DNA of 13,600 bases from Limnohabitans sp. (GTDB lineage: Bacteria; Pseudomonadota; Gammaproteobacteria; Burkholderiales; Burkholderiaceae_C): positions 1 to 13,600 of the forward strand of contig JAKFXJ010000176.1 of NCBI GenBank assembly GCA_021731425.1, read 5' to 3'. The notes under the pieces are model-generated. The model had not been told where the DNA came from. It saw nothing but the letters and a program-made list of their open reading frames with translations, and searched no databases. Positions within the stretch are counted from its first letter, which is position 1. Each line of letters starts with the position of its first letter. The position numbers were made by a program, and so were the translations under genes. Positions 1 to 4,142 of the stretch are shown in pieces.

Positions 1-3000
1 TGCGCAATGCCGACACCTTGACTGGTGCCTATTTGGGCGGGCGCAAACAAGTGGGCCTAGGCTTCAAGCGCATGGTGAGCGATAGCACGCCGCGTTTGAT
101 TTTGGAAGGCGCACGCGAGCACAACTTGCAAAACATCAGCGTGGACTTTCCGCTGCAGCGCCTGGTCACCATCACGGGTGTCAGCGGCTCGGGCAAATCG
201 AGTTTGATCCAAGACGTGCTGGCCCCGGCCCTGATGCGCCACTTTGGCAAAGCCACTGAAACCCCCGGTGCTCACGACCGCCTGCTGGGGGCCGACCACC
301 TGAGCGATGTGGTGTTTGTGGACCAATCACCCATAGGCAAAACCGCGCGTTCCAACCCGGTGAGTTATGTGGGCGCATGGGACGCGATTCGCGAAATTTT
401 TGCGACTGCCCCTTTGTCACGCCAGCGGGGCTACACGGCCAGCAAGTTCAGCTTCAACGGTGGCGATGGCCGCTGCCCCACCTGCGGCGGTTCGGGCTTT
501 GAGCATGTTGAGATGCAGTTTTTGAGCGACGTGTATTTGCGTTGCCCCGACTGCGATGGCAAACGCTACCGCCCTGAGATTCTGGAGATCACCGTCGAGC
601 GCCAAGCCCTGGGCCAGGCACAGCCGCGCCACCTGAACGTGGCCGACGTGCTGGACTTGACGGTGAGCGAAGCTGCCGCCTTGTTCGCACAAGACCGCGA
701 CGTGATCCGCGCCCTGCAGCCCATCGTCGATGTGGGCTTGGAGTACGTGAAGCTGGGCCAGCCCGTGCCCACCTTGTCGGGCGGTGAGGCGCAGCGCCTC
801 AAGCTCGCGGGCTTTTTGGCCGAGGCCGCCAAGAGCGCGTCCAAGAGCCGCCAGAGTCTGGCCCGCAAAGGCACGCTGTTTTTGTTTGACGAGCCAACCA
901 CGGGTCTGCACTTTGACGACATCGCCAAGCTCATGCGGGCTTTGCGCAAGCTGCTCGAAGCGGGGCATTCGCTCATCGTCATTGAGCACAACTTGGATGT
1001 GATTCGCGCCAGCGATTGGCTGATCGATCTGGGGCCTGAAGGTGGCTATGCTGGAGGGCTGATCGTGGCAGAGGGTACGCCCGATGATGTTCGCCAACAT
1101 GCGACATCGCATACGGGGCTGGCGCTGCGCGAGTATGCCGAGTCGATGGGCGAGGTGTTGGGTGTGGCTGAGCGTTTGGGTGCGGATTTGTACGTTGGTG
1201 GGGGCGAGGCTGTGGTGTCAGCGGGTTCCTCATACGGCGGGCGTACGCCAAAATCGTCACCCGCTGACACCGCAGCCTCGCTCTCGAGAGCTTTGGGTCA
1301 TGAGGGCGCAGGACTTTCCAGTGGAACTCATCAACGCGCACCCGTGTTGAACAACAACATCCAGATCATCAACGCCAAAGAACACAACCTCAAAAACCTG
1401 AGCGTCAACATCCCGCGTGGCAGCTTCAACGTGGTCACGGGCGTGAGTGGTTCCGGCAAATCCACATTGGCGTTTGACATCTTGTTCAACGAAGGCCAGC
1501 GCCGTTATTTGGAAAGCCTGAACGCCTACGCCCGAAGCATCGTGCAGCCCGCTGGCCGCCCCGAGGTGGATGCGGTGTACGGCATTCCGCCTACCGTGGC
1601 GATTGAGCAGCGCTTGTCGCGCGGCGGCCGCAAATCCACCGTGGGCACCACCACCGAGGTCTGGCATTTCTTGCGTTTGCTTTATGTGAAGCTGGGCATT
1701 CAGCATTGTGTGCACGACAACACGCCGGTGCAACCGCAAACGCCCGACAGCATCATCGCGCAGCTGATGACGCAGTTCCGGAGCCAACACATCGGCCTGC
1801 TGGCCCCCTTGGTCAACAACCGCAAAGGTGTTTATACCGAATTGGCCGATTGGGCCCGGCCGCGGGGTTACACCCACTTGCGTGTGGATGGCGACTTTTT
1901 GCCCACACAAGGTTTTCCGCGCATCGACCGCTTCAAAGAGCACAACATTGAACTGCCCGTGGCCAGCCTCGATGTGCTGCCGTCCAACGAAACCGCCCTG
2001 CGCCAAGCCCTGAGCAAAACACTGGAACACGGCAAAGGCGTGGTGCATGTGCTGAGCGATCTGGACGGCTTGCGCGAAGCCATGTTCAGCGGCGAGTCCA
2101 CCGCCCGCATTGGGCAGCACCGCGTCTTTTCGACACTGCGGGCTTGCCCGGCCTGCGACACCTCGTATGCCGAACTCGACCCGCGCTTGTTCTCGTACAA
2201 CAGCAAACACGGCTGGTGCCCCGACTGCGTGGGCACGGGCGTCAAGCTCAGCAAGGATGAGCGCAAAGTCTTTGACGACTCGGTGCAAGACGACAAGGAC
2301 AAAGGCCGCGAGAAAACCTTTGCCGAACCCGAGATCGAAGACTTGGCCAACGTGGCCTGCCCCAGCTGCGAAGGCACCCGCCTGAACGCCACGGCGCGTG
2401 CCGTGCGCTTGGGTTCGGCGCCTGGCCAGGGCTGGCGCATCACCGACATCGCCAGTTTGTCGGTCACCGATGTGCGGCATTGGGTGGACAAGTTGCAGCT
2501 CACCGGCCGTGACGCTGACATCGCCCGCGACTTGGTGCCCGAGATCAAAAGTCGCCTTGAATTCCTCGAAGAAGTGGGTCTGGGTTACCTCACGCTCGAT
2601 CGGGGGGCACCCACGCTATCAGGCGGCGAGGCGCAGCGCATCCGCTTGGCCGCGCAACTCGGCAGCAACTTGCAGGGCGTGTGTTACGTGCTGGACGAAC
2701 CGACCATTGGTTTGCACGCCCGCGACAACCAGATCTTGCTCAATGCCCTGCACAAGCTGGGCGAGAAAGGCAACACGTTGGTGGTGGTGGAGCACGATGA
2801 AGACACGATTCGCCGTGCTGACCACATCATCGACATTGGCCCGAGTGCGGGCAAACGCGGTGGCCGTTTGGTGGCACAAGGCTCGGTGGCTGATATCACG
2901 GCTTCTGCCGATTCACAAACCGGCCGCTATTTGTTGCACGCGATGAAGCATCCGATGCATGTTCGCAGGTCGGTGTCGGTCTCGTCACGGGGCGACGGGC

Positions 3001-4142
3001 TGGACTCCTCATATGGCGGGGGTACGCCAAAATCGTCGCCCAGCCCATCACCCCATGCCGAGACATTGGCGTCGCCGATGCAATGGCTCACGCTCACAGG
3101 GGCCAACCTGCACAACTTGCGCCAAGTCGATGTGCAGGTCCCGCTCAAACGTCTGGTGGCCGTCACCGGCGTCAGTGGCTCCGGCAAATCCACCCTGGCC
3201 CGCGATGTGCTGCTGGCCAACGTGCAGGCGCTGGTCAGCCAGCGATCCACATTCGCAGGCCGCACCGCACAAGACGCAGGTCAGCGTGTGGCCTTGACGG
3301 CGTGCAGCGATGTGCAAGGCTTTGAGACCATCGACCGCGTGCTCGAAGTCGACCAAACCCCGATTGGCAAAACACCGCGTTCCTGCCCGGCCACCTACAT
3401 CGGCTTTTGGGACACCATCCGAAAACTGTTTGCCGAAACCCTGGAGGCCAAAGCCCGTGGCTACGCCGCCGGGCGCTTCAGCTTCAACACCGGCGAAGGC
3501 CGCTGCCCCAGCTGCGAAGGGCAGGGCATGCGCACCATCGAGATGAGCTTCCTGCCCGATGTGAAAGTGCCTTGCGAAACTTGCCGAGGAGCCCGCTTCA
3601 ACCCCGAAACCTTGGCGGTGACTTGGCGTGGCAAGAGCATTGGTGATGTGCTGCAAATGGAAGTGGACGAAGCGGTGGACTTTTTTGCCAGCATGCCCAG
3701 CATCGCGCACCCGCTGCAGTTGCTCAAGGATGTGGGCTTGGGATACCTGACCTTGGGTCAGCCTTCACCCACGCTCAGCGGTGGCGAGGCGCAGCGCATC
3801 AAGTTGGTGACCGAGCTGACCAAAGTGCGTGACGAGGTGGGCAAACGTGGCAACAAAGCGCCACACACCCTGTATGTGCTGGACGAGCCCACCGTGGGCC
3901 TGCACATGGCCGACGTGGACAAGCTGATCAGCGTGCTGCACCGTTTGGTGAACGCGGGCCATAGCGTGATCGTGATCGAGCACGATTTGGATGTGATCGC
4001 TGAAGCCGACTGGGTCATTGACCTGGGGCCGGAAGGCGGCAACGCGGGTGGCCGCATTGTGGCGGCCATGACGCCTGAGGCGCTGGTGCGTTTGGGCACC
4101 CACACGGGGGTGGCACTCGGGCCGGTGTTGGCCCGGACTTGA
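1..4142 (+). CDS. uvrA: Double-length (tandem) UvrA-type excinuclease ABC ATPase, 5' truncated by window edge
   Basis: This is an UvrA-family DNA-damage recognition ATPase of the fused double-length form; UvrA loads UvrB in nucleotide excision repair. The frame is open to the left edge (codons from base 3 read RNADTLTGAYLGGRK, the usual UvrA module-linker sequence), so the TTG at 18 is internal. Residues are counted from that TTG. The end of unit 1 has Walker A GVSGSGKS near 54-61, a zinc module (C153, C156, C176, C179), LSGGEAQR near 253 and Walker B FLFDEPTTGLH near 288. Unit 2 (about 448-1374, 927 residues, close to a normal UvrA) has Walker A near 475 and 1051, zinc pairs C710/C713 and C734/C737, a UvrB-binding-like region about 565-700, LSGGEAQR near 867 and 1253, the second zinc module C1163/C1166/C1186/C1189, and switch histidines in VEHD/IEHD. 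All three visible ATPase modules look intact. Two linkers (about 372-445 and 975-1020) contain hairpin repeats. It could be a paralogue alongside a normal-length UvrA elsewhere. Confidence 0.95.
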   Translation, partial: RNADTLTGAYLGGRKQVGLGFKRMVSDSTPRLILEGAREHNLQNISVDFPLQRLVTITGVSGSGKSSLIQDVLAPALMRHFGKATETPGAHDRLLGADHLSDVVFVDQSPIGKTARSNPVSYVGAWDAIREIFATAPLSRQRGYTASKFSFNGGDGRCPTCGGSGFEHVEMQFLSDVYLRCPDCDGKRYRPEILEITVERQALGQAQPRHLNVADVLDLTVSEAAALFAQDRDVIRALQPIVDVGLEYVKLGQPVPTLSGGEAQRLKLAGFLAEAAKSASKSRQSLARKGTLFLFDEPTTGLHFDDIAKLMRALRKLLEAGHSLIVIEHNLDVIRASDWLIDLGPEGGYAGGLIVAEGTPDDVRQHATSHTGLALREYAESMGEVLGVAERLGADLYVGGGEAVVSAGSSYGGRTPKSSPADTAASLSRALGHEGAGLSSGTHQRAPVLNNNIQIINAKEHNLKNLSVNIPRGSFNVVTGVSGSGKSTLAFDILFNEGQRRYLESLNAYARSIVQPAGRPEVDAVYGIPPTVAIEQRLSRGGRKSTVGTTTEVWHFLRLLYVKLGIQHCVHDNTPVQPQTPDSIIAQLMTQFRSQHIGLLAPLVNNRKGVYTELADWARPRGYTHLRVDGDFLPTQGFPRIDRFKEHNIELPVASLDVLPSNETALRQALSKTLEHGKGVVHVLSDLDGLREAMFSGESTARIGQHRVFSTLRACPACDTSYAELDPRLFSYNSKHGWCPDCVGTGVKLSKDERKVFDDSVQDDKDKGREKTFAEPEIEDLANVACPSCEGTRLNATARAVRLGSAPGQGWRITDIASLSVTDVRHWVDKLQLTGRDADIARDLVPEIKSRLEFLEEVGLGYLTLDRGAPTLSGGEAQRIRLAAQLGSNLQGVCYVLDEPTIGLHARDNQILLNALHKLGEKGNTLVVVEHDEDTIRRADHIIDIGPSAGKRGGRLVAQGSVADITASADSQTGRYLLHAMKHPMHVRRSVSVSSRGDGLDSSYGGGTPKSSPSPSPHAETLASPMQWLTLTGANLHNLRQVDVQVPLKRLVAVTGVSGSGKSTLARDVLLANVQALVSQRSTFAGRTAQDAGQRVALTACSDVQGFETIDRVLEVDQTPIGKTPRSCPATYIGFWDTIRKLFAETLEAKARGYAAGRFSFNTGEGRCPSCEGQGMRTIEMSFLPDVKVPCETCRGARFNPETLAVTWRGKSIGDVLQMEVDEAVDFFASMPSIAHPLQLLKDVGLGYLTLGQPSPTLSGGEAQRIKLVTELTKVRDEVGKRGNKAPHTLYVLDEPTVGLHMADVDKLISVLHRLVNAGHSVIVIEHDLDVIAEADWVIDLGPEGGNAGGRIVAAMTPEALVRLGTHTGVALGPVLART
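1204..1281. repeat. Hairpin repeat copy A: 23-base inverted repeat around a conserved 32-base centre, in frame inside uvrA
   Basis: The left arm 1204-1226 (starts GCGAGGCTG, ends CAGCGGGT) is the reverse complement of the right arm 1259-1281 at 22 of 23 positions; the only mismatch is T1213 against G1272. The loop 1227-1258 is the 32-base centre shared with copy B. Inside it GGCG (1236-1239) can pair with CGCC (1246-1249), and 1240-1249 is a 10-base palindrome GGCGTACGCC. The element is 78 bases, exactly 26 codons. The centre is translated as SSYGGRTPKSSP. It lies in the linker between the first and second UvrA units, a position that should tolerate extra residues. An uninterrupted inverted repeat this long is not expected by chance in a coding region. 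Mobility is inferred, not shown. Confidence 0.85.
2979..3064. repeat. Hairpin repeat copy B: 25-base imperfect inverted repeat around the same 32-base centre, in frame inside uvrA
   Basis: The left arm 2979-3003 (starts GTCTCG, ends GGGCTGG) pairs with the right arm 3040-3064 at 21 of 25 positions; the mismatches are at 2985, 2988, 2993 and 2996. Three of the four are C against A on the plus strand, so they become G-U wobbles in a minus-strand RNA. The 32-base centre is 3006-3037 and differs from copy A at only two positions (T3014 for C1235, G3021 for C1242). It is read in the same frame, giving SSYGGGTPKSSP. The arms share no evident sequence with those of copy A. The GGCG/CGCC mini-stem of the centre is kept (3015-3018 with 3025-3028). 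The element lies in the linker between the two ATPase modules of the second UvrA unit. Confidence 0.8.

Follow-up and report, generated by a model that had tools for sequence, protein, structure and literature searches.

A family of hairpins in which the internal loop is constant across genera, while inner and outer stems vary yet stay paired, is spread across Comamonadaceae, for example in Limnohabitans, Malikia and Rhodoferax. We favour, with a probability of about 55%, the reading that these are REP-like, putatively mobile DNA hairpins recognised through their internal loop. The loop holds, whereas the stem sides change from copy to copy and still match each other; this suggests that something in the cell reads shape and loop, and not the sequence of the stem.

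Extent and layout of the hairpin family

The window, which is the whole stretch of 13,600 nucleotides that was analysed, is an entire contig of the source genome, and the uvrA frame at its start reads through two copies of the hairpin, both situated in linkers of this giant gene (Table 1). The preliminary description of this DNA had reported two elements sharing a 32-base centre between inverted-repeat arms, and both observations hold. The centres at 1227-1258 and 3006-3037 are identical at 30 of their 32 bases, and no such match arose when the window was shuffled 200 times by dinucleotides. The arms of copy 1 (1204-1226 and 1259-1281) are complementary at 22 of 23 positions (96% over 23 nt) and those of copy 2 (2979-3005 and 3038-3064) at 22 of 27, by hand count on the sequence. 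As single-stranded DNA both copies fold better than their shuffles on the two strands, with z = -8.3 and -7.9 for copy 1 and z = -3.4 and -6.6 for copy 2, the plus strand of the latter being the weaker.

Table 1. The uvrA frame of the window and the parts of its two hairpins
Feature	Position	Strand	Basis
uvrA reading frame, both hairpins in frame, 5' end beyond contig	3..4142	+	ORF list; NCBIfam UvrA models
Copy 1 (uvrA site s1), outer stem left arm	1204..1226	+	inverted repeat; fold
Copy 1, internal loop 5' side TCCTCATAC	1227..1235	+	sequence; family alignment
Copy 1, inner hairpin GGCG-GGCGTA-CGCC	1236..1249	+	fold; inner stem variable in relatives
Copy 1, internal loop 3' side AAAATCGTC	1250..1258	+	sequence; family alignment
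Copy 1, outer stem right arm	1259..1281	+	inverted repeat; fold
Copy 2 (uvrA site s2), left arm	2979..3005	+	sequence; arm pairing; fold
Copy 2, internal loop 5' side TCCTCATAT	3006..3014	+	centre comparison
Copy 2, inner hairpin GGCG-GGGGTA-CGCC	3015..3028	+	fold
Copy 2, internal loop 3' side AAAATCGTC	3029..3037	+	centre comparison
Copy 2, right arm	3038..3064	+	sequence; arm pairing; fold

A search of the source genome for the centre with up to 3 mismatches (the strict centre) returned four copies, all with self-complementary arms. The two beyond the window lie on a second contig, 171 nt apart and in opposite orientation, and map to the upstream half of uvrA. We refer to these upstream sites as s3 and s4, and to copies 1 and 2 as s1 and s2; in genome G008 a single reading frame of 2214 aa contains all four hairpins.

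The strict centre matches in 41 of 90 genomes of the genus and is missing from the other 49, which makes the uvrA hairpins dispensable in the long run. In a draw from the family it was found in 4 of 399 genomes, all four from the same genus (6 drawn), and in none of the 393 non-genus genomes. The loci that were fetched place it in uvrA and also upstream of recQ, next to a gene that we take to be queC. A relaxed centre (CTCAT..GGTA..AAATCGT) is present in 79 of the 90 genus genomes, none of which matches its reversed control; in a second family draw it occurs in 18 of 299 genomes, 4 of them of the same genus, against 1 for the control, and several of the non-genus matches look like chance. The closed pattern CCTCATR..AAATCGTYRCCC matches all 21 chosen genomes and its control none. 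Scanning named genomes gave at least 116 stretches, and the 80 listed loci come from Limnohabitans, Malikia, Rhodoferax, Hydrogenophaga, Curvibacter, Hylemonella, Comamonas and Comamonadaceae or Burkholderiales bins. Five listed loci (L315, L326, L334, L335 and L373) are in bins labelled Akkermansia muciniphila or Chitinophaga pinensis, which are probably mislabelled.

The unit of about 85 bp is built of a long outer stem, an internal loop with sides KCCTCATR and AAATCGTY, and a short, variable inner hairpin (CTGG-GGTA-CCAG, CGG-GGTA-CCG, GCG-GGTA-CGC, GTGG-GGTA-CCAC, GGC-GA-GCC, GCGC-GA-GCGC and others). Copies are dispersed in both orientations and frequently form inverted pairs about 120-370 nt apart. 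At two loci, L171 (Malikia uvrA, near 1661, 3659 and 5416) and L176 (genome G088), short tandem repeats such as TGCTCC stand directly outside or within the hairpin arms; hairpins may promote slippage.

Stem pairing and constraint

At the first loci collected, 148 of 152 distinct copies have an outer stem score of at least 8, a value reached at 11 of 20,000 random places, a null that may itself contain a few real elements. The outer stem measures 22-31 bp in 134 of the 152, and their 5' arms are rich in G (G 1956, C 774, T 629, A 511). A looser pattern collection gave the same score or better in 206 of 230 copies. Across the 86 distinct copies listed from the independent named-genome scan, from which copies cut by contig ends are excluded, own-arm pairing averages 0.91 over 17 unforced positions, compared with 7.26/17 (43%) when each left arm is set against the right arms of other copies, and at least 12 of the 17 positions are paired in every one of the 86. 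Arm identity between these copies is 0.42. Shuffles, random places, the named-genome scan and the re-dealt arms described below together rule out chance pairing. The observation from which the work started, a constant loop on an inconstant stem, is thus confirmed and more extensive than had been stated.

The outermost bases of the loop covary as well. In 337 copies, related copies being counted separately, the states of K..XY are T..TC (259), G..TT (27), G..GC (25), T..TT (8), A..GT (8), G..TC (5) and others (5), and of the 36 copies with G at X, 33 have Watson-Crick partners at K and Y. The common state, which on the opposite strand sets GA opposite GA, could correspond to tandem sheared pairs.

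The two window copies do have dissimilar arms, as had been claimed, but elsewhere the claim fails: alignable arm subfamilies, namely the type A arms, a gtgtgtgaggggatgcggcgggt group and a gtcattgaaagggcaaggggcgggt group, recur at unrelated loci. Since homologous arms are found at unrelated loci, the arms travel with the element, and the earlier suggestion that the stem is made from local DNA on insertion is not supported. The interpretation first offered is partly supported as a whole.

To describe how arms change, we compared paralogous and orthologous copies. Type A elements, found in the Limnohabitans clade of G007 and G010, carry GGGGTCAGATCAACATTAATT-like ends; when a locus with three of them was compared by BLAST with 12 relatives, each genome gave 5-82 matches, and most of those listed are about 149 bp long. 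The stems of 34 type A copies comprise 918 cells, of which 24 depart from Watson-Crick pairing. Pairing at positions 8-27 is 0.971; re-dealing the right arms lowers it to 0.549 (500 shuffles, maximum 0.649), and sliding the arms to at most 0.394. Among pairs of copies that differ at 1-2 positions, 19 differences are pair-for-pair, 8 are one-sided and 7 are of other kinds; the corresponding counts are 186, 31 and 18 at 3-5 positions, 1528, 145 and 108 at 6-10, and 3052, 210 and 236 at more than 10 (L234, of unsure register, was dropped). Both-sided changes that preserve pairing therefore dominate among paralogs at every distance.

The uvrA orthologs are mostly one-sided. Both-sided and one-sided differences number 84 and 813 at s1, 746 and 1119 at s2, 22 and 449 at s3, and 62 and 538 at s4, in 22-27 genomes per site out of 33 that were selected for having the centre. 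The rows used lie no more than 60 nt from the expected site and have one of the listed centre forms, and two (G065 and G005) were moved manually to a different site; the uvrA alignments comprise 26, 22, 21 and 25 genomes. The same mismatches persist over species, at s4 position 19 in 23 of 27 genomes and at s3 position 21 in 18 of 22. Mending in place is thus not general in uvrA and is insufficient as the sole explanation of paired arms.

A third comparison used the spacer between two genes, boxA and boxB, where the stem is perfect (25/25) in 13 of 19 ortholog rows and exists in the versions cagttgacagaggaagg, cagtcgtcaaaggcagg, cagttgacagagcaagg and cagttggcagagaaagg. Both-sided differences (394) exceed one-sided ones (209), in a rough count that includes two rows that are not strictly orthologous: G009, which is a neighbouring hairpin, and G000, a chimera. 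The 19 rows come from 23 genomes, after exclusion of G074, G071, G007 and G010, where the hairpin is absent. The hairpin of G000 (L289) looks like two adjacent copies fused by loss of the DNA between them, and in G009 (L293) the first hairpin has one arm of each version. Arms therefore change jointly between copies and at some sites, and singly at others.

Between genomes, the identity of arms and centre is 0.92-0.98 at s1, s3 and s4, whereas that of the linker 27-60 nt away falls to 0.19 (left) and 0.58 (right) at s1, 0.27 and 0.48 at s3, and 0.52 and 0.75 at s4; the far left flank is 0.81-0.82 identical. Site s2 is weaker, with 0.72 and 0.81 in the arms, 0.93 in the centre and 0.68 and 0.28 in the linker. 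Because the sample was found by its centre, conservation of the uvrA centre is partly by construction, which leaves the value of the arms unaffected. The boxA-boxB hairpins were found by their flanking genes. There CCTCAT is 1.00 identical (partly by construction), the AAATCGT stretch 0.90, the inner hairpin 0.71 and the arms 0.92 and 0.88, next to flanks of 0.58 (boxB side) and 0.24 (opposite side). This pattern is consistent with selection acting on the loop and on the pairing. The preliminary description had raised the option that a hairpin is selected for the one loop it presents; this is supported, as loop and pairing are held where nearby DNA diverges, though short of proof.

Some uvrA sites are empty, decayed or occupied by another repeat. 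At s1, other palindromes stand in G002 (L043) and G017 (L098) where relatives have the loop hairpin; that of G002 resembles a dimer of CGTC-type REPs (TGTCATTCC..GGAATCCA / TGGATTCCC..GATGACA), and the s1 linker seems to be a landing place for several kinds of repeat. Also at s1, G001 (L099) and G004 (L100) have decayed copies whose centres, judged by eye, are mutually inverted, a possible sign of template switching or of recombination between arms.

Candidate readers of the hairpin

We propose that a predicted DNA-binding or DNA-processing protein would use the internal loop to read the hairpin or cruciform once extruded. If recognition used the loop only, stems would need pairing alone. Stem mismatches would be corrected through template switching, repair inside the hairpin or passage through a single-stranded intermediate, with the arms moving together, and the family would spread by a single-strand route like that of REPs and REPINs. 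Such a reader is suggested to recognise the shape of the hairpin and its loop, and not the sequence of the stem. An analogy is that, in the excerpted text of PMC8266576, TnpA-REP requires a conserved bulge in the REP stem, and the upper stem can be replaced by its complement.

A more specific reading, which we hold only tentatively, is that heredity of the hairpin resides in half a stem. One arm would template the other in the folded single-stranded state, a putative transposase or host protein would read only the internal loop, and established copies, above all those in uvrA, would be kept by selection on the loop. If so, stems could drift freely and yet always match.

Covarying stems around fixed unpaired bases are the usual mark of a structured RNA, and copies are located in transcribed genes and spacers. 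The hairpin could accordingly be a processing site, stabiliser or terminator in the transcript, with the loop bound by an RNA-binding protein or RNase. We consider this unlikely. Sites s3 and s4 stand in opposite orientations within one frame, an arrangement kept over 22-27 genomes, and a reader of RNA would face two different loops in the same transcript. Crude gene calls around the 122 copies in the listed named loci place 56 inside ORFs of at least 200 aa, 12 between converging, 20 between diverging and 16 between same-way genes, and 18 at edges. Besides uvrA, leucyl-tRNA ligase is among the frames that bear copies, as are two less certain cases, formate dehydrogenase alpha and an HscA-like frame. 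An Rfam search of 7 sources with copies gave 20 matches, all below the gathering threshold, and a known RNA family was set aside. The opposite orientations of s3 and s4, the recurring inverted pairs and the mixed gene contexts thus favour a reader at the DNA level.

Somewhat less probable still is that nothing reads the hairpin. The family would then be a mobile repeat that is no longer active; template switching (quasipalindrome correction) alone would keep its arms alike, and its loops would be similar only through recency. Template switching is described, in the parts of PMC8604942 and PMC8794818 drawn on here, as homogenising arms and inverting spacers, in line with the inverted centres of G001 and G004 and with the both-sided changes at boxA-boxB. 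However, the loop is maintained over genera while inner and outer stems change, hairpins are retained beside an unalignable linker in uvrA, and drift there is one-sided.

Mobility and relation to known repeats

How the DNA hairpins might move is clearest for type A. A Y1_Tnp match is present in 24 of 24 genomes tested, and GGGGTCAGA repeats occur at 23 of 30 Y1 loci, in both orientations at 19 of the 23. At 8 of the 30 loci, all from the G007/G010 clade, the repeat beside the Y1 gene reads GGGGTCAGATCAACATTAATT, the same as the ends of type A, and both ends are present in 35 type A copies. Since these ends are the REPs beside a RAYT gene, type A is a REPIN built around the loop hairpin, and that RAYT probably moves type A in this clade. 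The loop hairpin itself occurs at 0 of the 30 Y1_Tnp loci (within about 1.5 kb), and GGGGTCAGA ends are absent from the uvrA arms examined, including those of the window copies. The family of the window as a REP of the resident RAYT is therefore unsupported.

Two further arrangements were seen near these genes. A Y1_Tnp fragment lies 1.5-2 kb downstream of s2 in G008 (L224) and G014 (L225), and in G008 it has nearby TTTGTAGGAGCC.. inverted repeats resembling GTAG REPs. At L179, L257 and L261, type A elements stand beside a motif, CTGATCGTTTKTACAG, that recurs at successive genes, some of which look by eye like toxin-antitoxin genes; the arrangement is reminiscent of cassette arrays.

A clean empty site was sought in uvrA, at the type A places of G007 and at boxA-boxB, and only deletions, symmetric trims and unalignable spacers were found. 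At s2, comparison of G020 with G040 makes one arm appear local, and a deletion at a shared TTTG is equally possible. In G074 (L437) the boxA-boxB spacer has just the outer 8-10 bp of each stem, joined, and a similar, symmetrically trimmed type A remnant lies near 1200 of L257 in G044; both trims could reflect processing of the hairpin tip. That the loop element inserts at the centre of pre-existing palindromes, every stem being host DNA, might account for these two remnants and recalls the other REPs reported inside palindromes (in excerpts of PMC3733652), but it is very improbable given the G-rich 5' arms, the homologous arms at unrelated loci and an arm sequence in G074 common to its full-hairpin relatives G001, G011 and G077, for which symmetric trimming is simpler.

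CGTC-tagged REPs are among the known repeats nearest to this family. According to the portions of PMC3733652 used here, these are short hairpins, frequently in inverted dimers, that lie between genes or in frame within them, including uvrA; their tag is often CCTC, A-T pairs stand at the stem foot and no transposase is adjacent. The inner hairpin of the present family reads CCTC-AT..AT-CGTC, and a transposase association is similarly lacking at the 30 Y1_Tnp loci. The same portions of PMC3733652 give the CGTC REPs a stem of 8-9 bp, a loop of 4-5 nt and a CCA tail, features that the family copies lack, and place the tag outside the hairpin. Here the inner stem has about 2-5 bp, the CCTC-AT and AT-CGTC motifs flank the inner hairpin yet lie within the long outer stem, and stem sequence is variable. 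As for GTAG REPs, there is no GTAG in KCCTCATR..AAATCGTYRCCC and none at a fixed place in the copies examined, and a conserved stem is excluded by the low arm identity.

REPINs are inverted REPs around a hairpin spacer in which compensatory changes are common (as excerpted from PMC3116915), so that this part of our observations is not new. In the sections drawn on of PMC3116915, PMC8266576 and PMC3686654, REPINs and RAYTs involve recognition of a folded single-stranded hairpin by its tag and its bulge. Judged by their ends, type A copies are themselves REPINs, and they alone in the family. REPINs, as far as these sections describe them, keep the REP ends and vary the spacer, whereas the present family keeps the loop at the tip, and the window copies have neither REP ends nor a place near the RAYT loci examined. 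The Rickettsia palindromic elements, also palindromes in frame in genes, differ in conserving stem sequence; we set them apart by description and by their classification as REPs, RPE-4 and RPE-6 being CGTC REPs in the excerpts of PMC3733652.

REPs, REPINs, REPs in uvrA and repair of stems by template switching are already known. The layout of a fixed loop on a free but paired stem did not appear in Rfam or in the portions of the literature searched, where the core strings of the family led only to one unrelated paper and titles point to no Limnohabitans uvrA repeats of this kind. The statement in the preliminary description that no named family has this layout stands to that extent, although the construction is like that of REPs and REPINs. 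Fungal mitochondrial double-hairpin elements, which we liken to the family by description only, are mobile and have variable paired regions, but are organellar and consist of two tandem hairpins.

In these hairpins the usual conservation of bacterial palindromic repeats is reversed, with the loop fixed and the stem free but paired. They make two questions testable, namely what reads DNA hairpins by shape, and whether selection or template switching makes the arms of a palindrome change together. They are also a strong case of repeats retained in the linkers of uvrA, where REPs had already been noted in other phyla, and of hairpins more conserved than the gene that surrounds them.
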